Shown here: positions 9,001 to 47,361 of the stretch, piece by piece | Position numbering within the stretch: the first letter of the stretch is position 1 | Layout of the letters: each line of letters starts with the position of its first letter | Source: Antedon bifida | Lineage: Eukaryota; Echinodermata; Crinoidea; Comatulida; Antedonidae | Reading direction: 5' to 3' | NCBI GenBank assembly: GCA_963402885.1 | Contig: OY727093.1 | Coordinates: 9,373,501-9,437,500, forward strand | DNA length: 64,000 nt | Notes under the pieces: generated by a model | The model's database searches: none | Seen by the model: only the letters and a program-made list of their open reading frames with translations | What the model was told of the DNA's origin: nothing | Program-made: the position numbers and the translations under genes

Positions 9001-12000
9001 CAACAACTGAACTATTCAACCATGGCCTCTATATCCTCTCAGCCAATCAGATGATAGTAAACATAACAAAGGTCAACTTCTATGATCACTAGTGCTTCAA
9101 AACATAACCTGTAAAAATTACGTCAAGGACACTTATAACATACCAAACGGTGTATTATTAATATCATTGAGGTATTATAGATGGGCTAGAGAGCTAACTA
9201 GTCAAAATCAAAGGTTTGGGATCTTCAAAATGACTGTATCTATTCAGAAGTATTGCTAAAATGATTAGTATATGAAATAACTCTATTGTCAATCAATGGA
9301 AAAACAATGAATAATTTATTGGAAAACTTCGAGACATTTTTGCATACAAAGACCGTATGATAGAATTAGAAGACATTCTCGCATTGATATACTCAACATA
9401 CTGCAACACAGGCGTAGTCGTGAGTGAATGCGTGTAACTGATCGGTGGATTGATGCCGCCTTATTCCTTGGTCCCTTCCTCATGGAGAAACACTATTTCT
9501 TCTGCGATTACATTGACAATCTAAATGTATAATCTAAGATATTATTAAATCATGGATTATCGAAATCAAAGAAAATTCCACCATTATATAGTATAAAACT
9601 GACATTCCTGATGAAGATCGAATAAAGATTGAAACGTTGAATCATGGCTTGCCTCTCATTATTTGGAGTCCGTTTTATACTATGTTATTTAAACATAATC
9701 AGTGCATCTATAGTATTAGTTCCACCATATAAACAGGATATTTCTAAATGATAAAGCAGACAAAAACGAGTGTATCTGTCATGAGATATTCTCCAGAATG
9801 ATTGAATCATGTACTTGAGTTGTTTATACAGTACAGTTAGATCTGACTGCACAAACTCAACACCCTTGAGCTGGTTCAGAATGTATGGCTTTCTGTTATG
9901 TTCAGTAATCACAATGTGTTTCACGGAGTGTGAAAGAATTTGGAAATACCATAAATAAAACAACTATACTATAACTAGTACACACCTATACAAATCAATA
10001 ACAGCATCTGTAGCCTACAACTGTACTCACCAAAGACAAACCTACCTGTACTGTATCATAACATTACAAGGATTTGCATCTAAACCGTATACACTGTAAT
10101 AGAAATAGCATTTACAGCATCTCTAAATCTTAATGGTATCATTGTCACAGGTTTACACATTTTCTTAAATCTCTGATTAATGATGTTTTTTAAATAACAA
10201 CAACTGAGCAAAAACATTGTGTTACCAGACCACCTATGCACTTGTTTTTTAAGTTCATACTGAAAAATAGCTATTCAGAAATACTGTTTCTTACGATATT
10301 CAGAGATTGCAGTCATTGGCATATAATATAAAAACAATTGAGGGACACATAGACATACTGTCAGTTACTGTTTCTTGATGGGTAACATGCTTTCTGTGTT
10401 CATTTCCTTAATCTTCCACATTGTGTACAAACACCATTGGTGCAATTCTCTATTTAAGTATCTGTTGGCTTTACAGTATATTTAGCAACTGAATGTTGCA
10501 TATAAGTAAAGGTCTATCTACATTATCAAATTCATGTGACAAAAAATGTGATGTGTCCATACATGGACATGATTATGTCATATCACTTCCATATTTGGGC
10601 ATATCACCACCATATTTGGGCACATCACACTTGTTTTGTCAAACGTGTTTGATAGTGTAGACAGAGCTTTAGTTTGATGAATTTAAAGTTAATCATAGTT
10701 TTTCTAAAAACCTATTTACATGTATAGCTTTTACTGTCCCTAATACAGTTTATTGTTTATAATAAAGAATAAATTAGTTATTTCTAGCAGTCTTTTTGTT
10801 TGAAAAATCTTCTAAATTTACTGTAGAATAGGTACTTTTTTTTTTATAAAACATTGGGTGATAATGTTTTATAATGCATACAGTATTTTATGATCTGAAT
10901 GCAGATCCTTTGTTTATAGAGTAAAGACTTAGAATTCCAAAAATAATTTGCCAGCATAATTGAATAAACTAACCCATTATGAAGTTCACTATGAAACAAC
11001 CATGTCGTTATTCCTTTAAATTTCATTTTGCAAACTCACTGTATTGTGGAATAAACAAACTGGAAGGAACTCAAATAAAACCATAAAAAAATTCTTACTA
11101 AAGAAAACTGAAAAAAATGTTGTTATCCAGAGGTTAAACAACATTTGGATATACTGTATATTCTACAGATTGAAACGCCTTTGAGTGGATGCTATGAACT
11201 TTAAACTTAAGAACCGGTTTGTACCGGATTAGTTAGTAATAGACTGAACAACCACAAACACTGCATAATAAACAGTCAAAAAGGGAATTTTATAATTTTC
11301 AAAACCTATATCCATTTTAGTTATCAATTTATACATCAATATTTTTTATGAACATATGTTCAATTCAAATGATACCTGGTTGTTATTTAGGTTTTAGGAA
11401 CAGAACCTAAGTATCAGACCTATCATTTAATTACATATACTCACGTACATGTAATTCTAAGCAAGCCCAGCCAATGAAAACACAACAAACCAAACACACT
11501 GTTTAGGAAATACAATACTGAATTATAATTGATTATGAATAGTTACGAGTATATCACTAAGAAAATAAGCTGAAATTCTATAAAAAATAAATATTTGTAG
11601 ACTACCGTGTATCACAATTTATGCATGGTTTTTGGATTGGGCTTGTTTATCTAATTAAAACTTGTGTATTTAGGCCTATATTGAGTTTACTGTATAAAAT
11701 AACTCTGTACTACAAATACCACTTTACTGTAAATGATGATAATACCTAAATTTATGAAATTTCTCCTACCAATAAGATTAGGGGACAGTTTCTTTATCCA
11801 GATCCCAAATCAAATGCCCTATGATAATTTTGTATTATATTTTGTATTGTTTGTATGTCTGGCATTAAGCTCTGTCTACAAACTAGTTTGACAAAAAAAA
11901 GTGTGATGTACCCAAATATGGTAGTGATATGCTTAAATATGGTAGTGATATGACATCATCATGTCCATACAGTATGTGGGCACATCACATATTTTGGTCA

Positions 12001-14027: not shown

Positions 14028-15654
14028 TTTGGTATTTTGTTGATATTTCTGATCTTGTTTGAAGATGTAGGCCTACAGACAATACGTCGTAGTAGGCTGT
14101 GATTCCAGACCTAGGCGTAAGCCTGGAAACACAACCTTCTCATCGGATGTGTGTAATTGTTGAACAGTCCGCTTTTCAACCGCAGCCTACAGAGAGTAGC
14201 AATCTAGGCCCTAGCCTGTCGTCGACGTCTCAGCCCGTCGTCAACCAAAAGCCTGACAAATGAACTTGAAATTTAAAAGGACACAGCCTAACAAAAACAA
14301 AAATTTAAACGTGAAGCTACTACTAGTAAATGATAATAATACTTGCTATATAGATCTTGAGACACCTAGGCAAAGCAAAATTGAGCTGAATTTTATAGTA
14401 AGATCATTAATTTCATATTATCTTGTAAATTACCTTTCTCGTCGAATAGCTCAAAACAGCCACGCTAACTACTTTGCGCTGCTGCTGCTACGTTCGGCGG
14501 TGGCTCATTCATCATCACAAACTCCATCGGTGTAAAAATATGACCTCCTCAGCCTCGCTTTCAAAACCCCGGGAGCTTGGTTTGTGTACCACGTGGTGCA
14601 ACAACAGAGGGTGCTATTGGTGTTTTTCTTCATATCACATGAGGTTTTTCTGAGTTTATGATTGACAATCTAATTGATTTCTTTTGGTTTAATTAAAAAT
14701 GTTGTTTCATTGTCGTCCTACAGCGTCATAACATTTCTACATTACATCATCCACGTCACTCATTACCGTCATCATTTTTATTGTCTGCCAAACAAAATAA
14801 ATTGACAATTCACATGATTTATATAAAATATTTGGTCTATTATTAACGCCAAACGTGGTATGTACAGTTGTACAAAATTCTCTTTAAAAAACATAATACA
14901 GTAGCTTAATTAAATCATAGAACAAAGCAAAGTTTGCTCTATGACTACTAAAACATGCATATATTATTTTCACAATTATGTTTCTTCTTTTAAATTATCA
15001 AAATTTACATTATTGTATAAATATCTCTATTTACAAATGCACAAAATATTATTTCTAAAAAAACATTTCTAAAATATAAAAACTAATTTTGTTAGTTGAA
15101 TGTGCTATATACATATTAAATTCAACAATGTGTAGGTATATATGTTACCTACGTCATTATATGTCACATGATCTGAATGAACTTGTGGAATGCATGTCAT
15201 AAATACAGACAACCGAATATGTTGCTACGAAATTATTTAATTTAAATCATTGTAAAGCTCTGTCTACACTATCAAACTTTATGTGACAAAAAATATGGTT
15301 TGCCCATGGACATGGTGACATCATATTACTACAGTACCATATTTGGACACATTAAACCTTTGTTGTCAAAGTAGTTTGATAGTGTAGAAAGAGCTTTAGA
15401 AACAGTTTTTGTGTGTCCTACCACAGAATGATTGAAAACGTAGACTTGCCACAAGTCTCTAGTTGTTTTTATATAGCGCCACCAGCAGGCGTTATGACAC
15501 ACTACGTATGCTAAAATGGCTCATTTTACAAAAAATAAATCGCTGTCTATAATCTAGACTATTAAACAAGTTTCAGTATTATTCAATTTAGACCTATTAT
15601 CAGTGGTGTAACGCAGAGACCCCTGGTTTACACACCCTAAGTGGCCCTCCACTT
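14028..15654. other. SETD2 upstream region and PIDD-like 3' region
   Basis: SETD2 starts at 14,027 and the PIDD-like gene ends at 15,655, both on the minus strand. The SETD2-proximal part (about 14,030-14,250) is richer in GC and CpG (CGTCGACGTC, GTCGTCAACC) and in TAGGCCTA words, as expected for a promoter and 5' UTR. The open frame at 14,260-14,535 has no recognisable motif. One MITE lies at 15,252-15,399. I see no further gene. Confidence 0.6.
15252..15399. mobile_element. Palindromic TA MITE
   Basis: A 148-bp copy with termini AAGCTCTGTCTACACTATCA and TTTGATAGTGTAGAAAGAGC. It is flanked by TA and lies 3' of the PIDD-like gene. Confidence 0.85.
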
Positions 15655-20466: not shown

Positions 20467-22200
20467 CTTAAAAAAAAAAATGTTTATCAATTATAGTCAT
20501 GATATAATAATTAAGTGTATATACATTATAAATTAATTTGTGTATAGTACTGTATTTGCATTATATTTTTATACAGTATTTTAATTTTATGTGATAGTCT
20601 GTGCCATTTGGTTAAATGATGTTGGCCTAATAATACTAATTTGTGCTATAAAGTTTTCCATCATTATTAGAAGACATTAGTAAAATTGTTCATTCATAAT
20701 AATAATATATTTTAAAACAAAGAAAAAATTGATATTTGTTTTTAAAATTCAATTTCATTTATATTCTAATTATATTTGCAAAAATAAAAAAACGTAGAGC
20801 TTCTCTGAATTGTTCATTTATTAATTTGTTGTCTTTTTTTAATCAAAAATAAATATACAATATTTATATACAAAATTTGAAACTTTGGCACAGCTAAAAA
20901 AAGCCTTTCTTGTTGACTGCTAATGTACTGTAGCAGCTGCAATTTTAGGCCTAAGCCATAATAATAATGCCTAGTAGTAGGCAGGCTTACTAAATTATTT
21001 TTTGGTAGAAAAATTATTATTATTAATTAACTTTGGTTTCAATGCATTATATAATAGGCCTACACTTATACTGTATATATAATATATTACCTTGTAAACT
21101 TTGACATATGTCTAGGCCCATTACATTTCTCCAGGCCCGCATACGTCAAATTTCAATGGACCAATGGCAAATTTCACCGCCGTTTTTTCAATTTTAATTT
21201 ACACACGCGATCCAAACAATGGGCCTAACTTATCAACAACACACTGTACATATTAATATAATATATTTAGATTACATAATGCATAGTAATACTTAATAAA
21301 TATATTTATAGACGCAAGAGAATATTACGAAACATAATATTTATGTTTTTACAACTAAAAATTTGAATAACCACAACAAAACCTTGTCTAGACTTGCCTT
21401 TTAGAAAACATACAAACAGCAACGCTTCAGAAAAGACGCCATCTTTAGATAAGTGTATAAACTTGACTCTGATTGGTTGAAACAACAATAACGTAGAAAT
21501 TGGTGAAGGGACTTTCCCTCCCATACAAAATCGACGACGAAACGTGGGGCATTCATTCATTTATTTGAATATATACTTTTAAATCAACGGCACACTTAGT
21601 AAAAAGTTTTATCCTTACAAAAATAATTTTTTTTAAACCATGAAAAGAAAAGGACAAACAATATTTTCAAGATAAATAATAAACGTCTAGCTAATCAATT
21701 GATACGACCACAACTATGTAATGTCCTATTTCCACCACCCACTCCCTTCAATTTATTTAAAAGTACTGTAAAGCTATATAATTGTTTAAATGTTTAATTG
21801 TCAATTAATACTATTAATTAATAAATGATGACGAGAAAAGTCTACATTAGGATGTGTAGGGTCGGATCCGCTAAACAAGGCCAGGTGTGATGATGTTATG
21901 TCAATACTATTTAATTATTTATGTAAAAATAGAAAATAATGTTGTAAATGATAAAAAAACATACTAGGCCTACTTAGTGTGTGATTTTAAAAGTACGTGT
22001 AATTTATATTCGACTTAGTTGGCGATTATTCAGTTTAGCCTAGTAAATAAAAACATGTTATTGCTGGTCAGAATTAGTGCCATGTTGGTATATAAAAACT
22101 TTTCGGTTAGTGCAAAATTTACTAAGTGAGCCCTCATTCTCTCAGGAATGACGCCCGTTAGACTCAGTTTCCAGTCGCTCTGCTTTAGTAAACACGTAGA
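20467..22200. other. Upstream region of the PIDD-like gene
   Basis: An AT-rich stretch with a GGCCTA-rich patch near 20,950-21,140 and an inverted CCAAT box near 21,471-21,480 (GATTGGTTGAAA on plus), consistent with a minus-strand promoter. A minus-strand open frame at 21,306-21,560 could overlap a first exon, but no domain or convincing donor shows this. The missing 5' exon of the PIDD-like gene may lie here. Confidence 0.45.
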
Positions 22201-22266
22201 GCTATATTGTGTAGTCGTTTTTTGATAACTGAGAGCTATCAGTGTGTATCATCCTCGTATATAATT
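22201..22266 (+). repeat. Left terminal inverted repeat of the satellite element
   Basis: 66 bp starting GCTATATTGTGTAGTC and ending CTCGTATATAATT, paired with 34676-34740 in opposite orientation. It holds GTGTAGTC (22209-22216) and TTGATAACTGAG (22222-22233), both present in each 97-bp satellite unit. Weak similarity may extend further out (TAGTA... on both sides). Confidence 0.8.
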
Positions 22267-22469
22267 GTTTCTTAGTTGTAATAAAGATCACATTATTATA
22301 AAATCTAGCATATTATTATAATATATAAATGTATAGGTACCAAAACTAATATTTTTATTTTTAAAAAAATTTGATAAGTATTTTAATAACACTGAAACAA
22401 CATTCTTAATATAACAAATGATATGTAGTACTACTAAATCAATGTCTAATTGCATAGGACTATGTGTAC

Positions 22470-25400
22470 AGTATTATGATCAGTGTAGTCAGAATTTGAT
22501 AACTGAGCACGCATCTTTTAATATCTACCTCATCAATAATTAGCATTGATATCATATATCACATTGTTGGATATGATCAGTGTAGTCATAATTTGATAAC
22601 TGAGCACGCATCTTTTAATATCTATCTCATCAATAATTATTATTAATAATCTATATCTCATTGTTCGATATGATCAGTGTAGTCAGAATTTGATAACTGA
22701 GCACGCATCTTTTAATATCTACCTCATCAATAATTATTATTAATAATCTATATCACATTGTTCGATATGATCAGTGTAGTCAGAATTTGATAACTGAACA
22801 CGCATCTTTTAATATCTACCTCATCAATAATTATTATTAATAATCTATATCACATTGTTCGATATGATCAGTGTAGTCAGAATTTGATAACTGAGCACGC
22901 ATCTTTTAATATCTACATTATCAATAATTATTAATAATCTATATCACATTGTTGGATATGATCAGTGTAGTCAGAATTTGATAACTGAGCACGCATCTTT
23001 TAATATCTACCTCATCAATAATTATTATTAATAATCTATATCTCATTGTTCGATATGATCAGTGTAGTCAGAATTTGATAACTGAGCACGCATCTTTTAA
23101 TATCTACCTCATCAATAATTATTATTAATAATCTATATCACATTGTTCGATATGATCAGTGTAGTCAGAATTTGATAACTGAGCACGCATCTTTTAATAT
23201 CTACCTCATCAATAATTATTATTAATAATCTATATCACATTGTTCGATATGATCAGTGTAGTCAGAATTTGATAACTGAGCACGCATCTTTTAATATCTA
23301 CATCATCAATAATTATTATCAATAATCTATATCACATTGTTGGATATGATCAGTGTAGTCAGAATTTGATAACTGAGCACGCATCTTTTAATATCTACCT
23401 CATCAATAATTATTATTAATAATCTATATCCCATTGTTGGATATGATCAGTGTAGTCAGAATTTGATAACTGAGCACGCATCTTTTAATATCTACCTCAT
23501 CAATAATTATTATTGATAATCTATATCACATTGCTCGATATGATCAGTGTAGTCATAATTTGATAACTGAGCACGCATCTTTTAATATCTACCTCATCAA
23601 TAATTATTATTAATAATCTATATCACATTGTTCGATATGATCAGTGTAGTCAGAATTTGATAACTGAGCACGCATCTTTTAATATCTACCTCATCAATAA
23701 TTAATATTAATAATCTATATCACATTGTTCGATATGATCAGTGTAGTCAGAATTTGATAACTGAGCACGCATCTTTTAATATCTACATCATCAATAATTA
23801 TTATTAATAATCTATATCACATTGTTCGATATGATCAGTGTAGTCAGAATTTGATAACTGAGCACGCATCTTTTAATATCTACCTCATCAATAATTAATA
23901 TTAATAATCTATATCACATTGTTGGATATGATCAGTGTAGTCAGAATTTGATAACTGAGCACGCATCTTTTAATATCTACCTCATCAATAATTAGCATTG
24001 ATATCATATATCACATTGTTGGATATGATCAGTGTAGTCATAATTTGATAACTGAGCACGCATCTTTTAATATCTACCTCATCAATAATTATTATTAATA
24101 ATCTATATCACATTGTTGGATATGATCAGTGTAGTCAGAATTTGATAACTAAGCACGCATCTTTTAATATCTACCTCATCAATAATTATTATTAATAATC
24201 TATATCTCATTGTTCGATATGATCAGTGTAGTCGGAATTTGATAACTGAGCACGCATCTTTTAATATCTACCTCATCAATAATTATCATTAATAATCTAT
24301 ATCACATTGTTCTATATGATCAGTGTAGTCAGAATTTGATAACTGAGCACGCATTTTTTAATATCTACCTCATCAATAATTATTATTAATAATCTATATC
24401 ACATTGTTCGATATGATCAGTGTAGTCAGAATTTAATAACTGAGCACGCATCTTTTAATATCTACATCATCAATAATTATTATTAATAATCTATATCACA
24501 TTGTTCGATATGATCAGTGTAGTCAGAATTTGATAACTGAGCACGCATCTTTTAATATCTACCTCATCAATAATTAATATTAATAATCTATATCACATTG
24601 TTGGATATGATCAGTGTAGTCAGAATTTGATAACTGAGCACGCATCTTTTAATATCTACCTCATCAATAATTAGCATTGATATCATATATCACATTGTTG
24701 GATATGATCAGTGTAGTCATAATTTGATAACTGAGCACGCATCTTTTAATATCTACCTCATCAATAATTATTATTAATAATCTATATCACATTGTTGGAT
24801 ATGATCAGTGTAGTCATAATTTGATAACTGAGCACGCATCTTTTAATATCTACCTCATCAATAATTATTATTAATAATCTATATCTCATTGTTCGATATG
24901 ATCAGTGTAGTCGGAATTTGATAACTGAGCACGCATCTTTTAATATCTACCTCATCAATAATTATCATTAATAATCTATATCACATTGTTCTATATGATC
25001 AGTGTAGTCAGAATTTGATAACTGAGCACGCATTTTTTAATATCTACCTCATCAATAATTATTATTAATAATCTATATCACATTGTTCGATATGATCAGT
25101 GTAGTCAGAATTTAATAACTGAGCACGCATCTTTTAATATCTACATCATCAATAATTATTATTAATAATCTATATCACATTGTTCGATATGATCAGTGTA
25201 GTCAGAATTTGATAACTGAGCACGCATCTTTTAATATCTACCTCATCAATAATTAATATTAATAATCTATATCACATTGTTCGATATGATCAGTGTAGTC
25301 AGAATTTGATAACTGAGCACGCATCTTTTAATATCTACATCATCAATAATTATTATTAATAATCTATATCACATTGTTCGATATGATCAGTGTAGTCAGA

Positions 25401-28100
25401 ATTTGATAACTGAGCACGCATCTTTTAATATCTACCTCATCAATAATTAATATTAATAATCTATATTACATTGTTGGATATGATCAGTGTAGTCAGAATT
25501 TGATAACTGAGCACGCATCTTTTAATATCTACCTCATCAATAATTAGCATTGATATCATATATCACATTGTTGGATATGATCAGTGTAGTCATATTTTGA
25601 TAACTGAGCACGCATCTTTTAATATCTACCTCATCAATAATTAGCATTGATATCATATATCACATTGTTGGATATGATCAGTGTAGTCATAATTTGATAA
25701 CTGAGCACGCATCTTTTAATATCTACCTCATCAATAATTATTATTAATAATCTATATCACATTGTTGGATATGATCAGTGTAGTCATAATTTGATAACTG
25801 AGCACGCATCTTTTAATATCTACCTCATCAATAATTATTATTAATAATCTATATCTCATTGTTCGATATGATCAGTGTAGTCGGAATTTGATAACTGAGC
25901 ACGCATCTTTTAATATCTACCTCATCAATAATTATCATTAATAATCTATATCACATTGTTCGATATGATCAGTGTAGTCAGAATTTGATAACTGAGCACG
26001 CATTTTTTAATATCTACCTCATCAATAATTATTATTAATAATCTATATCACATTGTTCGATATGATCAGTGTAGTCAGAATTTGATAACTGAGCACGCAT
26101 CTTTTAATATCTACATCATCAATAATTATTATTAATAATCTATATCACATTGTTGGATATGATCAGTGTAGTCAGAATTTGATAACTGAGCACGCATCTT
26201 TCAATATCTACCTCATCAATAATTATTATTAATAATCTATATCCCATTGTTGGATATGATCAGTGTAGTCAGAATTTGATAACTGAGCACGCATCTTTTA
26301 ATATCTACCTCATCAATAATTATTATTGATAATCTATATCACATTGCTCGATATGATCAGTGTAGTCAGAATTTGATAACTGAGCACGCATCTTTTAATA
26401 TCTACCTCATCAATAATTATTATTAACAATCTATATCACATTGTTGGATATGATCAGTGTAGTCATAATTTGATAACTGAGCACGCATCTTTTAATATCT
26501 ACCTCATCAATAATTATTATTAATAATCTATATCACATTGTTCGATATGATCAGTGTAGTCAGAATTTGATAACTGAGCACGCATCTTTTAATATCTACA
26601 TCATCAATAATACTTATTAATAATCTATATCTCATTGTTCGATATGATCAGTGTAGTCAGAATTTGATAACTGAGCACGCATCTTTTAATATCTACCTCA
26701 TCAATAATTATTATTAATAATCTATATCACATTGTTCGATATGATCAGTGTAGTCAGAATTTGATAACTGAGCACGCATCTTTTAATATCTACCTCATCA
26801 ATAATTTTTATTAATAATCTATATCACATTGTTCGATATGATCAGTGTAGTCAGAATTTGATAACTGAGCACGCATCTTTTAATATCTACATCATCACTA
26901 ATTATTATTAATAATCTATATCACATTGTTCGATATGATCAGTGTAGTCATAATTTGATAACTGAGCACGCATCTTTTAATATCTACCTCATCAATAATT
27001 AATATTAATAATCTATATCACATTGTTGGATATGATCAGTGTAGTCAGAATTTGATAACTGAGCACGCATCTTTTAATATCTACCTCATCAATAATTATT
27101 ATTAATAATCTATATCACATTGTTCGATATGATCAGTGTAGTCAGAATTTGATAACTGAGCACGCATCTTTTAATATCTACATCATCAATAATTATTATT
27201 AATAATCTATATCACATTGTTCGATATGATCAGTGTAGTCAGAATTTGATAACTGAGCACGCATCTTTTAATATCTACCTCATCAATAATTATTATTAAT
27301 AATCTATATCACATTGTTGGATATGATTAGTGTAGTCAGAATTTGATAACTGAGCACGCATCTTTTAATATCTACCTCATCAATAATTATTATTGATAAT
27401 CTATATCACATTGCTCGATATGATCAGTGTAGTCATAATTTGATAACTGAGGACGCATCTTTTAATATCTACCTCATCAATAATTAATATTAATAATCTA
27501 TATCACATTGTTGTATATGATCAGTGTAGTCAGAATTTGATAACTGAGCACGCATCTTTTAATATCTACCTCATCAATAATTAGCATTGATATCATATAT
27601 CACATTGTTGGATATGATCAGTGTAGTCATAATTTGATAACTGAGCACGCATCTTTTAATATCTACCTCATCAATAATTATTATTAATAATCTATATCTC
27701 ATTGTTCGATATGATCAGTGTAGTCAGAATTTGATAACTGAGCACGCATCTTTTAATATCTACCTCATCAATAATTATTATTAATATCTTATATCACATT
27801 GTTGGATATGATCAGTGTAGTCATAATTTGATAACTGAGCACGCATCTTTAAATATCTACCTCATCAATAATTATTATTAACAATCTCTATCACATTGTT
27901 GGATATAATCAGTGTAGTCATAATTTGATAACTAAGCACGCATCTTTAAATATCTACTTCATCAATAATTATTATTAATAATATATATCACATTGTTGGA
28001 TATGATCTGTGTATTCATAATTTGATATAACGCATCTTTTAATATCTACCTAATCAATAATAATTATTAATACTTAATGTTGGATATGATCAGTGTGGTT
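22470..28100 (+). repeat. 97-bp satellite array, forward orientation (~58 copies)
   Basis: Unit: GATATGATCAGTGTAGTC, then a TTGATAACTGAGCACGCATC block, TTTTAATATCTACCTCATC, an AATAATTATTATTAATAATC block and TATATCACATTGTT(C/G). The period is 97 bp and most copies differ at only a few positions. Variant units (AATTAGCATTGATATCAT; CATTTTTTAAT; GTCGGAATTTG; TTTAATAACTGAG) recur in the same order, showing higher-order structure. Copies at the 3' end (27,800-28,100) are more degenerate, as expected at an array edge. No coding potential. Confidence 0.97.
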
Positions 28101-28670
28101 TTGTTAAATTTAATGTATACGAGAGATCGAGTCGATGGGTTTTGAAAATGTGTTATTCTTTTGTTCCTAATCACCCTATTGATTTGTATCCGTTTGCTGT
28201 TTAAATTTATACTTTTAAGAACGCATCGTTTATGATGAACGTGTGCCGTTGTAAAAATAAAAATATTCCATATCTTTTTATGTTTCATATGTATTGGCTT
28301 CTATTGAGGGTCCCAGTTCTTCTTAACAGAATAAATTTGCAGTGAATGAATAATTTGATAAATGAGGACGTGTGTTTTAACATCGATCTATACAGACGTA
28401 CACGTATTAATACTCTTCCAGAAATGATATGTTGCTATAATAGGCCTATGACGAATTTCCATTACATTAATAATTCAATTAAAAAGGAAATGTGTCAGAA
28501 ATACTAAAGAATCCAGTAATCTTGTTGATTAATAATTAGTTGTACCATTTCTGATGAAGGAACAGAAAACTAAACTTGCAGCCAATCCGAAAAGCTGCTG
28601 TACTGTATAAGTAGGGAATTTTAAGTAGGAGTTGTTTTAAATGTCATTGGTCTCGGTTTTTACAAGCTTC
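28101..28670. other. Unique linker between two arrays
   Basis: About 570 bp of non-repetitive AT-rich sequence that starts as the 97-bp array decays. A short minus-strand frame at 28,067-28,288 shows no known motif. It is the only part of the array block that is neither satellite nor the 182-195-bp repeat, so it would mark the element's original centre or an insertion. Confidence 0.6.
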
Positions 28671-30330
28671 TGACCTAGTTTGTGTTTTAAAATGTCAATT
28701 TTAGATAAATTGACAGATTTTACCATGTAAACTGTGCAAACTTAATGCAAACTTTAATAAAAACACCCCACAAACATCATTCAAACCACTTAATATTGAT
28801 TATACCACTGCTAGAACTATAAAAGAGGACAATTTATTAAATAATTTTATTGAAATAGCTCTAGGTTTGATTTTTTAGGGTGAAAAATGTCAATTTTGGA
28901 TAAACTTACAGATTTTACCATGTAAACTGTGCAAACTTTAAAAAAAAACACCCCACAAACATCATCCAAACCACTTAATATTGATTATACCACTGCTAGA
29001 ACTATAAAAGAGGACAATTTAGGAAATAATTTTATTGAAATAGCTCTAGGTTTGATTTTTTAGGGTGAAAAATGTCAATTTTGGATAAATTTACAGATTT
29101 TACCATGTAAACTGCATAAACTTAATGCAAACTTAAAAAAAACACCCCACAAACATCATTCAAACCACTTAATATTGATTATATCACTACTAGAACTGTA
29201 AAAGAAGACAATTTTTGAAATCAATTTATTGAAATAGCTCTAAGGTTGACTTTTTTGGAGTGAAAAATGTCAATTTTGGATAAATTTATAGATTTTACTA
29301 TGTAAACTGTGCAAACTTTAAAAAAAACCCCACAAACATCATCCAAACCACTTAATATTGATTATATCATTATTAGAACTATAAAAGAGGACAATTTATG
29401 AAATAATTTTATTGAAATAGCTCTAGGTTTGATTTTTTAGGGAGAAAAATGTCAATTTTGGATAAATAGACAGATTTTACCATGTAAACTGCATAAACTT
29501 AATGCAAACTTAAAAAAAACACCCCACAAACATCATTCAAACCACTTAATATTGATTATATCACTACTAGAACTGTAAAAGAAGACAATTTATGAAATAA
29601 TTTTATTGAAATAGCTCTAAGTTTGACTTTTTAGCGTGAAAAATGTCAATTTTGGATAAATTTACAGATTTTACCATTTAAACTGCGTAAATTTAATGCA
29701 AACTTTAAAAAAACACCCACAAACATCATCCAAACAACTTAATATTGATTATACCACTACAAGAACTATAAAAGAGGACAATTTATGGAATAATTTTATT
29801 GAAATAGCTCTAGGTTTGATTTTTTAGGGTGAAAAATGTCAATTTTGGATAAATTGACAGATTTTACCATGTAAACTGTGCAAACTTTAAAAAAACACCC
29901 CACAAACATCATCCAAACCACTTAATATTGATTATACCACTGCTATAACTATAAAAGAGGACAATTTATGAAATAATTTTATTGAAATAGCTCTAGGTTT
30001 GATTTTTTAGGGTGAAAAATGTCAATTTTGGATAAATTTACAGATTTTACCATGTAAACTGCATAAACTTAATGCAAACTTAAAAAAAACACCCCACAAA
30101 CATCATTCAAACCACTTAATATTGATTATATCACTACTAGAACTGTAAAAGAAGACAATTTATGAAATAATTTTATTGAAATAGCTCTAGGTTTGATTTT
30201 TTAGGGTGAAAAATGTCAATTTTGGATAAATTTACAGATTTTACCATTTAAACTGCGTAAATTTAATGCAAACTTTAAAAAAACACCCCACAAACATCAT
30301 TCAAACCATTTAATATTGATTATATCAAAG
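28671..30330 (+). repeat. Central tandem array of 182-195-bp repeats (~9 copies)
   Basis: The core GTCAATTTTGGATAAATTTA occurs at 28694, 28889, 29074, 29269, 29451, 29645, 29839, 30021 and 30215, spacings 182 to 195 bp. Each unit also has CACCCCACAAACATCAT, CCACTTAATATTGATTATA and ATTGAAATAGCTCTAGGTTT. Length differences come partly from an optional CTTAATGCAAA segment and A-run changes. Two unit types roughly alternate. The last copy runs directly into the inverted 97-bp array near 30,330. Confidence 0.95.
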
Positions 30331-30334
30331 TTAT

Positions 30335-33205
30335 CAAAACTATGATTACACTGATCATATCCAACATTGTGATATAGGATATTATTAGTAGTTATTGATA
30401 AGGTAGATATTAAAAAACTAAACAGATCATATCCAACAGTATGATAGAGATTATTAATATTAATTAATGATGATGTATCTATATTAAACGATTTTTGCTC
30501 AATTATCAAATTATGACTACACTGATCATATCCAACAATGTGATATAGATTATTAATAATAATTATTGATAAAATAGATATTGAAAGATGGGTGCTCAGT
30601 TATCAAATTATGACTACACTGATCATATCCAACAATGTGATATATGATATCAATGCTAATTATTGATGAGGTAGATATTAAAAGATGCATGCTCAGTTAT
30701 CAAATTCTGACTACACTGATCATATCCAACATTGTGATATAGGATATTATTAATAGTTATTGATAAGGTAGATATTAAAAGATGCGTGCTCAGTTATCAA
30801 ATTATGACTACACTGATCATATCCAACAATGTGATATAGATTATTAATAATAATTATTGATGAGGTAGATATTAAAAGATGCGTGCTCAGTTATCAAATT
30901 ATGACTACACTGATCATATCGAACAATGTGATATAAGATATTAATAATAATTATTGATGAGGTAGATATTTAAAGATGCGTGCTCAGTTATCAAATTCTG
31001 ACTACACTGATCACATCTAACAATGTGATATAGATTATTAATAATAATTATTGATGAGGTAGATATTAAAAGATGCGTGCTCAGTTATCAAATTATGACT
31101 ACACTGATCATATCGAACAATGTGATATAGATTATTAATATTACTTATTGATGAGGTAGATATTAAAAGATGCGTGCTCAGTTATCAAACTATGACTACA
31201 CTGATCATATCCAACATTGTGATATAGGATATTATTAATAGTTATTGATAAGGTAGATATTAAAAAACTAAACAGATCATATCCAACAGTATGATAAAGA
31301 TTATTAATATTAATTAATGATGATGTATCTATATTAAAAGATTTTTGCTCAGTTATCAAATTATGACTACACTGATCATATCCAACAATGTGATATAGAT
31401 TATTAATAATAATTATTGATGAGGTAGATATTAAAAGATGCATGCTCAGTTATCAAATTATGACTACACTGATCATATCGAACAATGCGATATAGATTAT
31501 TAATATTAATTATTGATGAGGTAGATATTAAAATATGCGTGCTCGGTTATCAAATTATGACTACACTGATCATATCGAACAATGTGATATAGATTATTAA
31601 TATTAATTATTGATGAGGTAGATATTAAAAGATGCGTGCTCAGTTATCAAATTATGACTACACTGATCATATCCAACAATGTGATATAGATTATTAATAT
31701 TAATTATTGATGAGGTAGATATTAAAAGATGCGTGCTCAGTTATCAAATTATGACTACACTGATCATATCGAACAATGTGACATAGATTATTAATAATAA
31801 TTATTGATAAGGTATATATTAAAAAACTAAACAGATCATATCCAACAGTGTGATATAGATTATTAATATTAATTAATGATGAGGTAGTTATTGAAAGATG
31901 GGTGCTCAGTTATAACATTATGACTACACTGATCATATCCAACAATGTGATATAAATTATTAATAATAATTATTGATGAAACAGATATTAAAAGATGCGT
32001 GCTCAGTTATCAAATTCTGACTACACTGATCATATCGAACAATGTGATATAGATTATTAATAATAATTATTGATGAGGTAGATATTAAAAGATGCGTGCT
32101 CAGTTATCAAATTCTGACTACACTGATCATATCGAACAATGTGATATAGATTATTAATAATAATTATTTATGAGGTAGATATTAAAAGATGCGTGCTCAG
32201 TTATCAAATTCTGACTACACTGATCATATCCAACAATGTGATATAGATTATTAATATTAATTATTGATGAGGTAGATATTAAAAGATGCGTGCTCAGTTA
32301 TCAAATTATGACTACACTGATCATATCGAGCAATGTGATATAGATTATCAATAATAATTATTGATGAGGTAGATATTAAAAGATGTGTGCTCAGTTATCA
32401 AATTCTGACTACACTGATCATATCCAACAATGTGATATAGATTATTAATAATAATTATTGATGAGGTAGATATTAAAAGATGCGTGCTCAGTTATCAAAT
32501 TCTGACTACACTGATCATATCCAACAATGTGATATAGATTATTAATAATAATTATTGATGATGAAGATATTAAAAGATGCGTGCTCAGTTATCAAATTCT
32601 GACTACACTGATCATATCGAACAATGTGATATAGATTATTAATAATAATTATTGATGAGGTAGATATTAAAAGATGCGTGCTCAGTTATCAAATTCTGAC
32701 TACACTGATCATATCGAACAATGTGATATAGATTATTAATAATAATTATTTATGAGGTAGATATTAAAAGATGCGTGCTCAGTTATCAAATTCTGACTAC
32801 ACTGATCATATCGAACAATGAGATATAGATTATTAATAATAATTATTGATGAGGTAGATATTAAAAGATGCATGCTCAGTTATCAAATTCTGACTACACT
32901 GATCATATCGAACAATGTGATATAGATTATTAATAATAATTATTGATGAGGTAGATATTAAAAGATGCGTGCTCAGTTATCAAATTCTGACTACACTGAT
33001 CATATCGAACAATGAGATATAGATTATTAATAATAATTATTGATGAGGTAGATATTAAAAGATGCGTGCTCAGTTATCAAATTATGACTACACTGATCAT
33101 ATCCAACAATGTGATGTAGAGTATTAATTATTGATGATGTAGATATTATAAGATGCATGCTAACTTATCAAATTTTGACTACACTGATCATATTTGATAT
33201 TGTGA
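30335..33205 (-). repeat. 97-bp satellite array, inverted orientation (~30 copies)
   Basis: The same 97-bp unit as at 22,470-28,100, now reading on the minus strand (plus-strand signature TGACTACACTGATCATATC, GCGTGCTCAGTTATCAAA). Several units carry a shared variant (AAAAAACTAAACAGATCATA near 30,415, 31,265 and 31,820), suggesting local block duplication. Units near the centre of the locus (30,335-30,500) and at the outer end (33,110-33,205) are the most degenerate. Confidence 0.97.
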
Positions 33206-34675
33206 TTGATGATGATATATTCATATAAAGAGTTTGTTTTTCTGTACAATACTCACAGTATTTTTTAATCCATCCACATGAAGAAGAGACACAAGAAGAG
33301 TTGTTTGAAATTGTGAAGCCTCACAACCTTACTAATTGTGATGACATTTAATATAATATTACAGCCATACACAAACAGTAAGGTAGTTAGGGTCACTACA
33401 ATCTATTAAAATAATTAACATTAATTAACTGGAAACATTGTTAATTATCAGTTTGAGTTTGACTTTTGTCTCTTTTGTTGTAGAATTGAATCTCTCTTTA
33501 TCCATTGTTTTCAACCTGAAAATAAACAGGCCTAATACCTTGCCATTAGCAATGAAATCAACTTACACACTAACATTTTATATAGATAGGCTGTCTATGA
33601 CCCCCAGCCTACCCCTAGCTAGGCCTATGCCTCTCTATACCATTCTGCTGGCTAGCTAGCAAGGCCCTAGGCCTAGTCCTATAATTAATAGCACAGGTCT
33701 CATATAGATAGGCCTAGAGTGTTTAGACTGAGCCTGGTTATATGCCTATTTATTTAACTAGGCCTAGGCAGGCATAATCAGCCTAAACTAAGGCCTAATA
33801 AACTAGTCTAGGCCTAGGCCCTAAAAACTAGAATACATAGAGCTAGCTAGAGGCTAGCCTAGGACTAGCCTAGCTACTTATTAGCTAGTAACTAGTACTT
33901 ATAAGCTACCAGTTCCGTAGTAGGGCCTAACCAGGTGGGCCTAGCCTAGCTAGGCCTAGTAGTAGTAGTACTACCCTAGTAGTAGCTTACTAGGCTAGTA
34001 CTACTACTAGGCCTATCTAGGCCCTAGGCTAGGGTAGCTAGACTAGCCCTAGGCCTAGTAGTAGGCCTAGGCTATATGCCTAGTAGTACTAGTACTAGGC
34101 CTACCTAGGCTACTAGCTAGAGTAGAGAGATGCCAGCCTACCTAGGCCTAGCTAGGCCTAGCTAGGCTAGGCCTAGGCCTCCTAGCTAGGGGCTAGGCCT
34201 AGGCCTAACTAATCTGCCCTTTTTGGAGGCTAAAATATTGTCTAAAATAAGCTATGACCTACAAACATAGCTTAACTATCTGTTAAGGGCGACACTTATG
34301 ATGGGTAATCAATAAAATATGCTTCTAAATCTACCTTTTTGGCTTGCAATCTTAATATCCAGTCTAGCCCAAAGATCGTATAGCGCCACTACGTGGCGCT
34401 ATACGATCTTTGGTCTAGCCTAGGCCTAGGCTAGGCCTGCACGGATCAGGTAGCGAAACGAACGAAGTGAGAGCAGAGGAGGAGGAGGCCTAGCTAGGGC
34501 CTAGGTTTCAGGCAGAAAAGATAATCTCGTGTTTGTGAAATTATATATCTATTTATAGTTATTTTAAAATATATCCCTAACATTTCAAAAATTATATATA
34601 TTACTGATAATTAATTATAAGAATGATACTCTACCTAATGATATAATCAATTAAATGTGTTTTTCGTACGAAATT
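33206..34675. repeat. GGCC/CTAG palindromic-word-rich region with hairpin
   Basis: From about 33,530 to 34,510 the sequence is dominated by overlapping CTAG, GGCC, TAGGCCTA and AGTAGTAGT words, far denser than in the rest of the window. It includes a 21-bp-arm hairpin at 34,369-34,413. No long open frame or gene signal is seen. Smaller GGCCTA patches lie upstream of other genes (39,190-39,480; 57,670-57,960), so the word bias appears to be genomic and only its density is unusual. Confidence 0.75.
34369..34413. repeat. Perfect 21-bp hairpin with 3-nt loop
   Basis: Arms 34369-34389 (CCAAAGATCGTATAGCGCCA plus C) and 34393-34413 are exact reverse complements around the loop TAC. It sits within the palindromic-word-rich zone, about 260 bp inside the right terminal inverted repeat. 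The geometry resembles an intrinsic hairpin or a small foldback element. No function is evident. Confidence 0.88.
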
Positions 34676-34740
34676 AATTATATACGAGGATGGCATAAGT
34701 GATAGTTCTCTGTTATCAAAAAACAACTACATAATATACC
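34676..34740 (-). repeat. Right terminal inverted repeat of the satellite element
   Basis: 65 bp. On the minus strand it reads GGTATATTATGTAGTTG, then TTTTTTGATAACAGAGAACT and CATCCTCGTATATAATT, pairing with 22201-22266. It lies within about 100 bp of the likely RNF41 5' UTR exon, so the element abuts or overlaps that promoter. Confidence 0.8.
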
Positions 34741-35460
34741 TGACACGTACAGTACTATTGCACTATCGATGTTTTTAGTGGTTTGGTAGTCGTCGTTTTT
34801 CGAAGTTTACCTGGATGAATTAGTTTATCAAATTGAATCATTTTGGAGTGCTTGTAGGTATTTTTAACAATACATATGATTAGTTTAATTATTAGTGTTA
34901 TATTAGACGTTGAATTTAGGTATATTATTTATATATATCACTGATATTTAGAATAGATTTGTTGGTTTAGATGACGTGTTTCGTGAATGTGTCACTGACA
35001 CTACGGCTAGGCCTGGATAGATAGGAGTGTCTAGACGGGTGTGTAGCCTGTAGGGTTGGACTGGCATTTATGAGTGGAAGAAGAATGTGTGTAGTGTACT
35101 CGGTGTTAGAGCCTACACGTAATATCTTAGCAGTAAAATCGTATTTGCTATCATTTTCCGTAAATGAATGGTAACGGTAATAAAAAGCAAAACTTGCTCA
35201 GCAGGATATCCCTTGTTTTGTTTGTTTATTTATTTTCTTAATATTATTCATTCCATCTTATTATAATCTGGTCTGGTGATTATTTTAAATTTTTTTTCCA
35301 ATGCTACTAAGGCTAAATTATAGTATGGATGTATGATTTCATTTAATTGATTTATTGCTTATTTAGTGATCACCACAGTGTAAATTAATAGACCTAGCTG
35401 TTAAAACATTCTTTTTAATTTACTGATTTGTGTATTTTTTAATGTATATTTTCAGACATA
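34741..35460 (+). promoter_or_regulatory. Likely RNF41 promoter, 5' UTR exon and first intron
   Basis: The RNF41 coding exon is preceded by a splice acceptor (TATTTTCAG at about 35,447-35,455, five bases before ATG). A donor-like GTGCTTGTAG/GTATTT near 34,850-34,862 would end a non-coding first exon. The transcription start therefore probably lies near 34,700-34,850, next to the right inverted repeat. No clear TATA box was identified. Confidence 0.45.
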
Positions 35461-36420: not shown

Positions 36421-39400
36421 AATTAAGTAAATTCTTAAATTCCTATGTCTTAAAATACATTTTCCAAAAAGATATATCGCCCTGTCCATGATATTCTAAA
36501 ACTCAGTTTCAGGGTATTTTCTACAGTGACAACTGTAGCCAGTTTGTATAGAAAAATTGTACATTATGTGAAAAGTAACATTTTTTGTAACCAAATTTTT
36601 AGAAGTTTTTTTTAATTCATTTTGAAAACCTGGTATTGTATAAAAGTATTAGAAAATTGGTAGATTAAATTGTTTATATTAATCTTTATTCTACTAACCT
36701 GTAATATATATGTTAATATATAGTCTGTATAATAATCAAAATATTTTGCATTTATATTTTTTAAAGATAAAATGATACGACAATATTACAAGTCAGCTTA
36801 AAGTAAAGTTACATATGATGACATTTGGTGCTGAAATATTGCGTCTATTATTGGACCTAATTTAAACAAACTTTATTGACAAATACATATTATTTCTGGG
36901 GTTTTTGTGTATTGTAAAATATAAATATTATAAGCAGAATATTCCGGGTTCGAATCAAATAAGTTGGCTTTTCCCATTATCACAGTACAGTAATTGGTTC
37001 ATTTTCAGTGTATCAATGACCTGTTTAGAGTTTCTCCTATGCCTATCAAATGATATATTAATGGCAATCATACTGTGTTTAAATATATTGGTTGTAATAA
37101 TAGGTTGCTGCATATCGAGCAGTAGAAGACCAGGCTTGAACTGTGGCTTGTTACTGGGAGAGTGGTTCTCTCCTGCGTCTTGCTGGGGATGATGCCCAGT
37201 AGAGCCAAACCTAAGTGGAACTTTATAAGCTTCTTCCAAAACCCCTCCCCATCGTATAGGCGTACAGTATTTATTTATTTCTTTTATAATGTTGAGAACA
37301 CTGTGCTGTACTCAAGTAAGGTGTGTTCTATTTTGGGGCAAAAGTACAATTGATTATAGAATTTGATGTCATCGCATCCATATCTACATCCTGACAACAT
37401 GTTCACCTTAACCCAAGGTCTCAAATTATGTTCCTGTTCCTTATGTGCTATACTAAACGTACTAAACTCAAAATGTAAGTTTAAGCAATTGTCATTAATA
37501 AATGTAATACTGTCATTAATCTGAAATAGTGTCATGTTATTTGTGGAAAATATTTTTCATCATGAAAGTCAAACCCCGCCCCTTGATTTCATCGCTGGCT
37601 GCGCCCCTGAATAGGCTACAGTAATGGGTTTGTTGCATCTCTTCTTGCCAGTGTTTTAAATACAGTACAGTCTCCATCAGAGGGGTTGATGGCAGACGTA
37701 AAAAACGTTAGGGCGACATCGAGCGAGTTCCGAGAGTACCAGCTAGTGAAATATTATTAGGCCAAAACAACCTCTGAATAATTTCAGTGGAGGGAGGGCG
37801 TTTTTTTTAATGTACTATATTTTAATAGGTCATACACTCACACCAAATCTTTAAAACATGAACAAATAGATCACTACATTAATTTTCAACCACTTAATGC
37901 AATAACAGTGTTCCTGTACACGTACTCTCGCAATAATCGAATGTTTTCTTTTTTTTTTTATTCGTAAATGAATGTCAGAATGAATGAACTTGCTCTTTCA
38001 GTTTTTAATATTCCATCTTGATCTGGTCATGTTTATTTTTTAAAATTAATCCGATTTTTATTGGAATTTTTAGTTGCTTTTTTGTCATAAAAATAACAGG
38101 GGGAGAGAGAGAGGTGTTTGTTATATAGTTTTGTTGGCCTTATCAAGCTACACCAGTGTCATTATCACGTATGAAAATTCATACACAAAGCCTTGTCTAG
38201 ATCTACACTATCAAACTTTATGTGACAAAAAATGAGACGTGCCCATATATGGACATAATGATGCCATATCACTACCATAATTAAGCATATCACTACCATA
38301 TTTGGGTACATCACACTTTTTTTGTCACATACAGTTTGATAGCGTATACAGAGAGTTTAAGAAGATCATGTAATCAAATTATTATACGCGCCGCTCATTC
38401 TATAAAACAGCATTGGCCAGGGAGTTGTTCATTAACAAGTGCTGCATTGGATATACGATCTTTCTATTCAATTAAAGTATTATTCAAACGAGATGAATAA
38501 TAATGATAATAAATTTAATCATGGATAAAATTAGTAGTAGGCCTACTTATTTTATCCATGCATTAATTAAGAATGTAATGTACATTAAGGTAGGAAATTT
38601 AAAAGAGTAGTAGTAGGCCATATTTAACACAAGATATAATAATAATTTATTGGCACTGCAATTTTTTTTTATCAGTGGCACACTTCAACTTGTGAAGGTG
38701 CGTCCAAAGAAACAACTACTAGATAGTGTAGGCAATTTTACAGAAGAAATAAGATATAAAGGAAGGAGAACTTTAAACAAGGACAATAAAAAGGAAATCA
38801 CGACAGGAAGGCTAACGAACCTTTAGAACAGTATCGTCCTTCAACAAAGTAATTTATTTCCGTTAAAACCGCAGATATCCCCCCTTAATTTAGCTGCACC
38901 GACTGCTATCAGTGGTCGCACTTTGTAATGCCAGGATTTGTTAATTTAACTGTTTGCGTACTTTTTTAAACAATTAAATTTGCTGTGACGATTATTTAAT
39001 AACGTGCGACGTAAAATACCGACTCTAAATTTTGGGAACTGCATGAGCCTCGGTACCCGTAGGGATCTGGTTTCATTTCATAAAGTTTATGCAAGAGGGC
39101 GTACTCTATATTTTACAACGACAACAACAACACACACAAAATCAACGACACGTGAGAACCGTCGACGGAGGAGAGGTAGGCTCAGCATTTAGGCTAATAA
39201 ACCTAGGCCTAGGTCTATAATATTTTACCCCGTACTATATATTGTAATTATTAATTTGAATAAGCGACTCGCATAGTTAGCCCATTAATGCTTACTCTCT
39301 AGCTAATAATATACTAAAATAGGCAGGCTGTAATAAGTTTATAGAAAGTAGTCTAGGCCTCTAGCTAGGCTCCTTAGTTAGTCGCTAAGCCGCCGAGGAG

Positions 39401-39718: not shown

Positions 39719-42700
39719 ATGGCAGAGTTATCATGTTTGCCAACCCCTTCACTCGTTGTTGATCTAAACAAAGTGACACAGAATTGTGAAAGGATGTTAC
39801 AAAAATGTCAAGAACTGGGTGTTAAACTTCGACCTCATACTAAAACCCATAAAACCTTGTAAGTTCATTCTAATCATTTACTTTTCCATCTAATAAGAAA
39901 TTTAAAGTTAAAAGAGAAAATTCTTGAAAAAAGTTGTGTGTATAATTGTTGTACAGTATGTCAGACTTATCTGCTATTTTTTTCTGAATTCAATATGACA
40001 TTTTCTTCAAGGCAAGCAGGTGAAATATCAACTGGAAATCGAAAACATGGACTTGTTGTGTCAACAATAGCAGAAGCCAAATACTTTATCAATGGTGGAT
40101 TCACAGATATTATATTTGCCCAGCCTCCAAGCCTAAACAAGGTTGAAGTGTGTACTGCCCTCGTTGAGAGTATCTCAAAGTTTCATATGCTTATCGATAA
40201 TGTTCAACATTTGCAAATGCTAGAGGATACAAAGTTGGCGAATGGAAAACAGTGGTCTGTCTTTCTCGATTTAGATTGTGGTTATGGTAGAAGTAAGTTC
40301 TATATAATAACTAAACATGATCAAGTATTGTCATTATGATTACGGTATTATTGATATCATACCCCAGGATTTATAGATCTCTTCTGATATTGTGTCTCTT
40401 CTGATATTGTGAATGGCCGAGCAGTTACGGCAGAGGCGCCATTTACCGTACCTAAAGAGCCAACAATATCGGCATGGGTTCGAGGCGACTTGCTTCTAGT
40501 TCTGGTGGTGGAACAATGTTCTTGGATAAGGACTATAAACCGTATGACCAGTGTACACAGTTATAACCTGTGTGCACTTTAAAGAACCCAGTTCATTATT
40601 CAAGATGAGTAGGGGGTAGTTACCTTGGTGAACTGGTTCACAAAATAGCCCTGTATCAGGCGGATTACCACCTATCTGATAGGAAAGTGATTAATTTACT
40701 ATTGGTAATCCTTGGCCACATTGCCTAAAGATATAACATTTAAAAAAAAATTAAATACTATAGTATAGATAAGACCATATCAATTTGCAAATCCATATAA
40801 GCAAGAATCAGTGCTGGCTACTAACTACACCAGTGGTCTAATATGCATATATCAAGCAGAAGTACCAAAGTTTGAGTATCAGATTTTCTCATCTTTCATC
40901 TCGTGTTTTACGTTCTGTCTCACTATCAAACTTCATGTGACAAAAAAATGTGATGTGTCTATATATGGACATAATGATGTCAAAGCACTACCATATTTGG
41001 GCATACCACTACCATATTTGGGCACATTACACTTTTTTTGATAGTGTAGAGAGAACTTAACACTTACTGCAAAACCTTTTTTGAAAAATAAATTAACTGT
41101 TTTATTTTCAAGCCGGAGCCAAATGGGATAGTATTAAAACATTTGACCTGGCTCGATTAATCCACCAATCAGAATCAGTCGATCTTGCTGGTCTTTATGT
41201 ACATGAAGGAAATTCATACAATCAAACGTCAGCTGGTGATGTCACTAAACTTTCTGATGTGACTGCAACACGATTGCTTGAATTTTCAGACAAGTAGGCA
41301 TTTTATAAGCATTTACTTTTTGAAAATCTGTAACTGCTTCAAAGTGAATTTTCCACTCAGGAGTATTATAGTGGGTACCTGGAAGGTTTTAAAAGCCACG
41401 ATATTCAGATCTCCCAAGGAGGTTCCTTTCAAGTCATCATCCCACCTCCCACTACAGTGAAATTTCTCAAGATTGCTTCTTTTTTCAAAATATATATATC
41501 TCGATATTAAATGTATAAATTTGTGACTTAGTCTCAAGATTTTTAAAGCATTCTCTATAATAGTTCTATGTTTATTATTAAATTGTTATTGTGCCCTTCT
41601 TATTTGGCAATGTTTTCATAAATTCTCTCGATATTAAATTTTTCCAAGTTGGGACCACTGCATATGTTTTTTTGCTGTTTTTGTTAAGCAGTATTGTGTA
41701 TAATAAATGTGTGATTTTAAATGTTGCAGGCTTGAAAAGGAAGGAATAGATTGTCCAGTCAAATCAATGGGTTCAACACCTTCTTGTAGCCTACCAGCTG
41801 AAATCATGAGTAAAATAACTGAATTTCATCCTGGAAATTACGTGTTTTATGGTGAGTTATCATTGCTTTAGTTAAATACAAAACAACATTTTGAAGGTGG
41901 GACTTCTGTAACACAAGTGACATAAACTGAATTCATTTATTGGGGTAACATTCAGATGAAACATCTATTAAAGAGATACCTTCCTGTGAAATAAGTGAGT
42001 GGCAATATGTTATATTAGGATATTGTAGGTTGGTTTTGTGGAAGTTGCTTATATTGTTAACTTTCTAGTGTAATTGTTTCTCTTCTTGTCTTTTTTGTAT
42101 GATTTGTATATTGATGTAGGCCTACTATATAAATGAATGAATAACACTACAGACAACCCCTATTAAATTAATATTGTCTAGTCCAGAAGGTATCTCTAAA
42201 TAGAGTTTCTACTGTATTATGTTTATTATTCATAAAGCAAAATCAAGAATGATTAAACATTCTTATCCTCTAGATTTACAACAGTACTACATTGGTTCGT
42301 GCACTCTAGATGATATAGCATGTACGGTAATTGCAAGGGTCATAGGTCACTACCCTGATAGAGGACATATGGTGATGGATTGTGGTTGGACTGCACTGGA
42401 CAACCAAAGCCAAATGTCAAAGTGCGTTACTGGACATGGTTGTATTGTTGGTGAACCAAACTTAAGGTCAGTGTTAAGTCAAGTTAGAAGGTCATTAAAA
42501 AAAGTTATAATAGGTTAATTGATTACCAAATTTGCATATATACATTCTGATGAATAGCATTTCTTTTTTGATTGATGGCTAAATTTTTGTAAAATTTTCT
42601 TTTACAAAAGTTTTATTTATTTTATATATAGAATTGACTCCATGACCCAAGAAATTGGAAAAATTTCCGCCATCAATGGTAAACTAGATTATGAAAAATA

Positions 42701-46820: not shown

Positions 46821-47193
46821 TAAGTAGCCTATTACACAAAATTAGATTAGACGTAATCATTACTCCCACGATCATCGGTGATATCGGTTGTTATTTTGAG
46901 AATTAGGTAAATATAAAAATATTTTGTGTAGATATTCGTAATAATTACAATCTTATAGGAAATTCTGACAGTAGTATTTATCCATGAATTACTGTCTAAA
47001 ATCTTTTCTTTTTTAACTTTGTTTTTTTGTAATGTAAACTGCAATATGAATCTTAAGAAATACGTTAAAAAGAAGTTTGGAAATTCTGACGTGTCCCCTA
47101 AAGGGGATACTTTTTGATTAAACTAATTGGTTAATATGGGTTCATTGTATTGCACTAATGAAGTTGATATATTTATTTTAGTGTCACTACGTG

Positions 47194-47361
47194 TGAAGCT
47201 CTGTCCACACTATCAAACTTTATGTGACAAACAAAATGTGATGTGCCTATATATGGTCATGATGATGTCATATCACTACCATATTTGGAAATATCACTAC
47301 CATATTTGGGCACATCACACTTTTTTTTTCAAACTAGTTTGATAGTGTAGACAGAGTTTTA
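47194..47361. mobile_element. Palindromic TA MITE
   Basis: A full-length copy (GAAGCTCTGTCCACACTATC ... GATAGTGTAGACAGAGTTTT), intergenic. Confidence 0.85.

Follow-up and report, generated by a model that had tools for sequence, protein, structure and literature searches.

Foldback elements are recognised by long inverted arms built largely of tandem direct repeats, and three such families, Galileo, Tetris and Tm1, offer the closest published comparisons for a 12,544-bp element that we describe here from the crinoid Antedon bifida. The element occupies positions 22199-34742 of the window, by which we mean the whole stretch of 64,000 nucleotides analysed (assembly GCA_963402885.1, contig OY727093.1, positions 9,373,501 to 9,437,500). 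Galileo, a member of the P superfamily in Drosophila, has foldback-like long arms of tandem repeats and 7-bp target duplications, includes two-arm copies without a transposase, and is reported to carry secondary transposase-binding sites in its arm repeats (PMC3573991, PMC2775673, PMC4168063). Target duplications in the P superfamily, Galileo included, measure 7 or 8 bp, and one D. willistoni Galileo copy of 9,021 bp has tandem repeats of about 140 bp in its arms (PMC2775673, PMC4168063). Tetris, a non-autonomous foldback element of Drosophila virilis, has tandem repeats of about 220 bp in arms of up to 1,735 bp, 8-10-bp duplications and three structurally complete copies; a 37-bp part of the repeat resembles the outer end (about 80%), the repeats also form long arrays, and its authors considered that larger arrays may have disrupted transposition (PMC4079207). 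Tm1, a Mutator/foldback family of root-knot nematodes, has composite inverted arms whose internal repeats, each of about 14 bp, vary in number; its duplications are mostly of 9 bp (PMC3169594). Non-autonomous Helentron elements of the Pacific oyster also disperse satellite-like arrays (PMC7492417).

The window element has the layout of these foldback families, with two oppositely oriented arrays of a 97-bp satellite between imperfect inverted ends (Table 1), and very probably it belongs to a non-autonomous foldback-type family that has been active recently and transposes by cut and paste, cutting its target with a 7-bp stagger. The inverted ends align at 85.9% identity over 64 columns (22203-22266 against 34738-34676; E 2e-11 in a self-comparison of the window), with a local alignment score of 82 compared to a maximum of 30 among 2,000 dinucleotide shuffles. 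An exact 7-bp repeat, ACACGTA, adjoins both ends in register, and this target duplication, together with the other copies, sets the limits of the element, whose ends are GAGCTATATTGTGTAGT / CAGGTATATTATGTAGT. The longest stop-to-stop frame within this copy has 102 amino acids and is located in the satellite.

For the family as a whole, we searched the window's own assembly (315.6 Mb, 27 contigs) with an 80-bp piece of the left end and with the right end, scoring 40 of 60 and 40 of 61 candidates, respectively, all copy counts being lower bounds. At least 32 left-type and at least 8 right-type matches were returned by the left end, at least 22 of the left-type ones perfect over 80 bp with the window's included, while the right end identified at least 30 right-type and at least 10 left-type places. 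Apart from one left-type match without the terminal 28 bases (C8:29629778), there were at least 31 left ends, 28 of which were paired with a right end; the three others were C8:17802760 (right end not found), C12:23782631 (right end truncated) and C12:17782055 (decayed). Every one of the 28 pairs, those of the window and of L014/L049 included, is bordered by an exact 7-bp target duplication, and the 28 duplicated sequences are all different. Both hallmarks of cut-and-paste movement, paired inverted ends at unrelated loci and a duplication of constant length, were present in this family. A pattern of 27 bases common to both ends, allowing up to 3 mismatches, gave 60 hits, consisting of 30 left and 28 right family ends and two other sites, against 2 hits for the reversed pattern used as a control.

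An origin of the family without transposition, with the arrays copied by segmental duplication or created in the assembly, is extremely improbable and was rejected. Segmental duplication did produce one pair of copies, L014 and L015, whose left flanks are 98.5% identical over 806 columns. When the 1-kb left flanks were compared, however, only 3 of 190 pairs showed any match and L014/L015 alone matched up to the element, and the exact, mutually different duplications of all 28 pairs speak against both versions of this explanation. A few insertions are located inside copies of the same dispersed repeats. An earlier note on this sequence had proposed a giant non-autonomous DNA transposon without a transposase-sized frame, bracketed by inverted repeats at 22201-22266 and 34676-34740. 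The repeats proved real, their exact limits being 22199 and 34742, the frame lengths agree with the proposal, and two of the confirmations it had looked for, paired inverted ends at other loci and a constant target duplication, were both found in the same genome. Two of its reservations, that the ends might be confined to this locus or the arrangement be an assembly artefact, are answered by the many copies with different flanks, because of which we exclude an artefact at the window locus.

Paired copies range from 7,967 to 28,587 bp in length (n=28, median 11,642, sum 347 kb). No short derivatives were detected among ends of the quality searched, a search that is blind to derivatives with altered ends. 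Most non-autonomous families are represented by short derivatives, the opposite of what we observed for this giant-element family. Every paired copy lies far above the length given for miniature inverted-repeat transposable elements (MITEs; under about 600 bp, PMC3573991).

To describe the layout, we used 20 fetched stretches of 10 kb from family copies. The conserved left end of 276 bp was 96-99.6% identical in all 20, left arms held from 15 to at least 90 units, the linker was found entire or in part in 17, and the central tandem array was seen in 16. Arrays of both orientations, and with them the long inverted arms of largely tandem direct repeats that define foldback elements, were present in the window copy and in 17 of the 20 stretches, with only the left array within 10 kb in L008, L014 and L015. 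This mirror layout in most fetched copies lends further support to the transposon proposed in the earlier note, although its picture of a mirror layout needs amendment: the 97-bp arrays are opposed as described, but the arms are unequal. The left arm has 57 full units and the right one 27, the spacing from array to inverted repeat is 208 bp on the left but about 1.5 kb on the right, and the linker separates the left array from the 194-bp array. The note knew of no named family with this layout; Galileo, Tetris and Tm1 are named relatives.

Individual copies departed from this plan in several ways. L009 is nearly pure inverted satellite, with linker and central array absent and 76 left units facing right units across about a dozen bases. 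In the longest copy, a non-long-terminal-repeat (non-LTR) retrotransposon is inserted in the satellite array (L014:2593-6908); its open frame of 1,172 amino acids encodes an RVT_1 reverse transcriptase, an endonuclease and a PHD finger, and was rejected as a gene of the element itself. The 16.5-kb copy L008 was considered as an autonomous candidate and dismissed, as the 2.8 kb of unique interior read (L008:7215-10000) has a 415-bp tandem duplication and only short frames on both strands, the longest of 113 amino acids. An extra 95-bp piece in the linker of some copies was likewise rejected as a satellite unit.

Comparison of whole copies showed that they moved intact and recently. Aligned with each other, L011 (C8) and L019 (C7) show 99.66% identity across 9,001 columns, and when units were written as haplotypes, L011, L013 and L019 each had 47 left units, identical in order at 45 (L011/L019), 41 (L011/L013) and 39 (L013/L019) of the 47. 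Since tens of repeat variants follow one another in the same order at unrelated loci, the copies must have moved with their arrays included. L002, L004 and L007 are apparent block variants of the same unit order, and the window copy together with L006 forms a separate lineage; array lengths change through block gain and loss. Units were no more alike within a copy than between copies, in left arms (similarity 0.9553 within, 0.9546 between) as well as in right arms as far as the 10-kb stretches reach (0.9191 and 0.9189), whereas units from opposite arms had a similarity of 0.931 whether taken from one copy or two. Because within-copy units are no more alike and the two arms are distinct, we conclude that the arrays spread ready-made inside the element.

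A smaller marker of lineage lies in the right subterminal region, where the window copy has a perfect 45-bp palindrome (21-bp arms, 3-base gap) between two copies of TCTAGC, which resembles a tiny nested insertion bordered by a 6-bp duplication. At the 24 of 30 right-end loci where this site was readable, 3 had the palindrome, 9 had a single TCTAGC and 12 were altered; the carriers (L024, L031 and the window's own locus, L030) mark one lineage.

Against this background, the kind of element is already known, because Tetris, Galileo and Tm1 carry tandem repeats in inverted arms. The giant family resembles Galileo in its foldback-like arms with tandem repeats, 7-bp duplications and transposase-less copies, and differs in scale, with Galileo arms of about 0.3-1.2 kb compared to paired copies of 8-28 kb in 28 of 28 cases. 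With Tetris it shares non-autonomy and arm repeats that resemble the outer end. The homology there, however, is 37 bp, whereas nearly the whole unit is involved at the left end here, and the long arrays of Tetris were taken as disrupting, whereas those of the giant family lie inside complete, recently moved copies. Repeat-bearing inverted arms are also common to Tm1, unlike its repeats of about 14 bp and its mostly 9-bp duplications. The oyster Helentron is a Helitron-type element, and the giant element instead has inverted ends and 7-bp duplications. Helitron-type elements are not known to have such inverted ends or such a target duplication. In the open-access literature searched, we found no family with dozens of complete 8-28-kb copies that consist mostly of a terminus-like unit and are mobile at that size; what is unusual here is how large every paired copy is, together with the signs of recent full-length movement. 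The collinear copies speak against disruption of transposition by arrays as a general rule. The family shows that a long satellite array is able to travel through a genome as one piece. It is a young family of a single genome, its arrays of tens of units were carried along when whole elements moved, and it bears on how satellites reach new places and on whether tandem repeats in its arms favour or impede the movement of a transposon. Large inverted repeats have been placed at 28 or more genome sites, where they would be expected to promote rearrangement.

We next consider where the satellite came from. The left terminal inverted repeat is itself a diverged satellite unit (22209-22294): in the window, a unit model built from the window's own units matched the left end over positions 8-90 in the same orientation (12.7 bits, E 0.006), and scored against the left end alone it reached 12.8 bits, with none of 2,000 shuffles as good (shuffle maximum 4.6). 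Elsewhere in the window, outside the element, nothing scored above 4.7 bits. The unit and both ends have a common core, GTGTAGTC-N4-TTTGATAACTGAG, and the satellite looks like the element's own end multiplied. Conservation of this motif was measured in 1,290 units from 20 copies, taken from 1,401 hits after 111 covering fewer than 85 of 95 columns were dropped (L014 was excluded on account of its retrotransposon insertion). Over model positions 3-92, with gaps not counted, mean variation was 0.73% in motif columns compared to 4.1% in the others, and the medians were 0.47% and 1.24% (Mann-Whitney p 0.0009). On the simplest reading of these sequences, the motif would be a bipartite transposase-binding site repeated in each unit.

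We propose that a transposase binds this motif, that the arrays were made by inward duplication of the terminal unit, and that unequal exchange or gap repair accounts for the gain and loss of blocks of units. The whole structure would be mobilised by a transposase encoded at a different locus, and the extra binding sites would help, not hinder, its mobilisation. It is possible, and we suggest it tentatively, that the family is a self-dispersing satellite, in which a terminal transposase-binding unit was multiplied tens of times in each arm, copies compete for a shared transposase through added binding sites, and selection brought the paired copies to 8-28 kb with mobility retained. If so, selection for bigger arms replaces the usual drift to short MITE-like forms. 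Nearly every unit holds a candidate binding site, and the family offers a natural range of array lengths for testing.

A different account, to which we would give real weight while stopping short of thinking it probable, is that a host DNA-binding protein preserves the motif, or that the motif is left over from recent amplification, the arrays being neutral or harmful ballast. It draws on the fact that 1,021 of the 1,290 units occur in variants common to several copies and hence are not independent samples, and on some non-motif columns that are as invariant as the motif. Set against it, the motif is the very stretch common to both ends, none of the other 95 circular placements varies as little when gaps are counted, per column the variants were found in 5.5 of 20 copies for the motif compared to 10.0 of 20 elsewhere, and even the shortest paired copy measures nearly 8 kb. 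For the binding-site reading itself, the dependence among units is a weakness; conservation could stem from a recent common ancestry of the units or from binding by a host protein, and other results pull in the same direction. The right end gave a weak match to the unit model in the phase seen at the left end (4.3 bits, a score reached by 1 of 2,000 shuffles), plain local alignment to the unit was less decisive (its score was reached by 3 of 2,000 shuffles for the left end and 94 of 2,000 for the right), and one motif column, G22, varies by 5.4%.

As for the transposase, a literature search for 7-bp target duplications turned up Dada and Galileo, and we regard the P superfamily as the most likely partner, at about even chances. 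We favour it because of the 7-bp duplication, which falls within the range for the superfamily, and because many P-type transposase genes are present in the genome. The P-type RNase H domain PF21787 had 58 genomic matches, of which 15 had one identical score, with open frames of 638-642 amino acids; recently multiplied P-type elements are therefore present. A fresh member of this gene family (L062, C10:13982900-13985900) has a cysteine-rich N terminus and is seemingly intron-bearing. Four P-type genes lie at C12:20.093-20.147 Mb with spacings of 14.7, 14.8 and 23.9 kb. The two non-family hits of the 27-base pattern, C12:20172322 and C12:20173127 (2 and 1 mismatches), are 805 bp apart in the same orientation and stand 25.6 and 26.4 kb from the nearest of these four genes (genes and sites together span C12:20093269-20173153), from which their orientation points away; about 0.7% of the genome is equally near a P-type match, and we treat this as a post hoc lead, the reversed control having also given 2 hits.

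Two other sources of transposase were weighed. For most foldback families a Mutator-type transposase has been proposed, and that such an enzyme mobilises an element of the kind described here is improbable: Tm1 and Tetris, which have tandem repeats in their arms, were placed in Mutator by their authors (PMC3169594, PMC4079207), but their duplications are mostly of 8-10 bp, compared to exactly 7 bp in all 28 pairs. We consider it unlikely, to a lesser degree, that the element belongs to Dada or to an undescribed superfamily that also makes 7-bp duplications. Dada duplications are of 6 or 7 bp, and the lack of any transposase linked to the giant-element ends leaves room for other superfamilies; many Dada families, however, insert at fixed sites in small-RNA genes (PMC8869645), whereas we found 28 different 7-mers here and an Rfam scan of the window gave no match there, to small-RNA genes or otherwise.

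Several results count against P-mediated transposition as we have described it. The 28 target sites have no strong consensus and hence do not follow the GTANTAC of Galileo; the sites lean weakly towards a palindrome with the duplication at its centre (the best of 9 centres compared; permutation p 0.045), which we do not rely on. Each of the 31 left ends is more than 48 kb from the nearest PF21787 match, and hence none lies inside a copy, and the autonomous relative with the same ends that had been suggested as a guide to the superfamily was not found. An intact P-type element (L062, L063), of which 4.5 kb was read, had no convincing similarity to the giant element, with neither its ends nor its unit recognised there, and the P-type element's own ends were not located. 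Finally, joined flanks gave no junction-spanning match in the sequence examined from this one haploid assembly, and no empty allele was seen.

Table 1. Features of the giant element and places of the dispersed repeat, in window coordinates
Feature	Position	Strand	Remarks
Target-site duplication, left copy (ACACGTA)	22192..22198	+	identical to 34743-34749
Left terminal inverted repeat	22199..22266	+	starts GAGCTATATTG; boundary same in 20/20 fetched left ends
Left subterminal spacer	22267..22474	+	with the inverted repeat, forms the conserved 276-bp left end (22199-22474)
Left array	22475..28077	+	97-bp unit, 57 full units
Linker	28078..28688	+	holds a decayed unit at 28340-28416 (E 1.4e-4)
Central tandem array	28689..30327	+	different unit; Tandem Repeats Finder periods 194 and 377
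Right array	about 30329..33193	-	97-bp unit, opposite orientation, 27 full units and partial ones
Right subterminal region	33194..34675	+	GGCCTAG-rich; apparently nested 45-bp palindrome at 34369-34413
Right terminal inverted repeat	34676..34742	-	reverse strand starts CAGGTATATTATG
Target-site duplication, right copy (ACACGTA)	34743..34749	+	
Dispersed repeat	10506-10672, 11876-12022, 15251-15399, 38202-38353, 40914-41040		
Dispersed repeat, continued	47192-47369, 48660-48820, 49214-49530, 52128-52243, 56853-56911		

The window element sits between two genes, and its flanks carry animal-type genes, on one side exons for leucine-rich-repeat/ZU5 and Death domains, and on the other a RING protein that has a USP8-interacting domain and that we take to be RNF41-like. 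Elsewhere in the window, a dispersed MITE-like repeat, at most about 160 bp long and in part self-complementary, with a 21-bp tandem core (ATCACTACCATATTTGG), occurs at about ten places.

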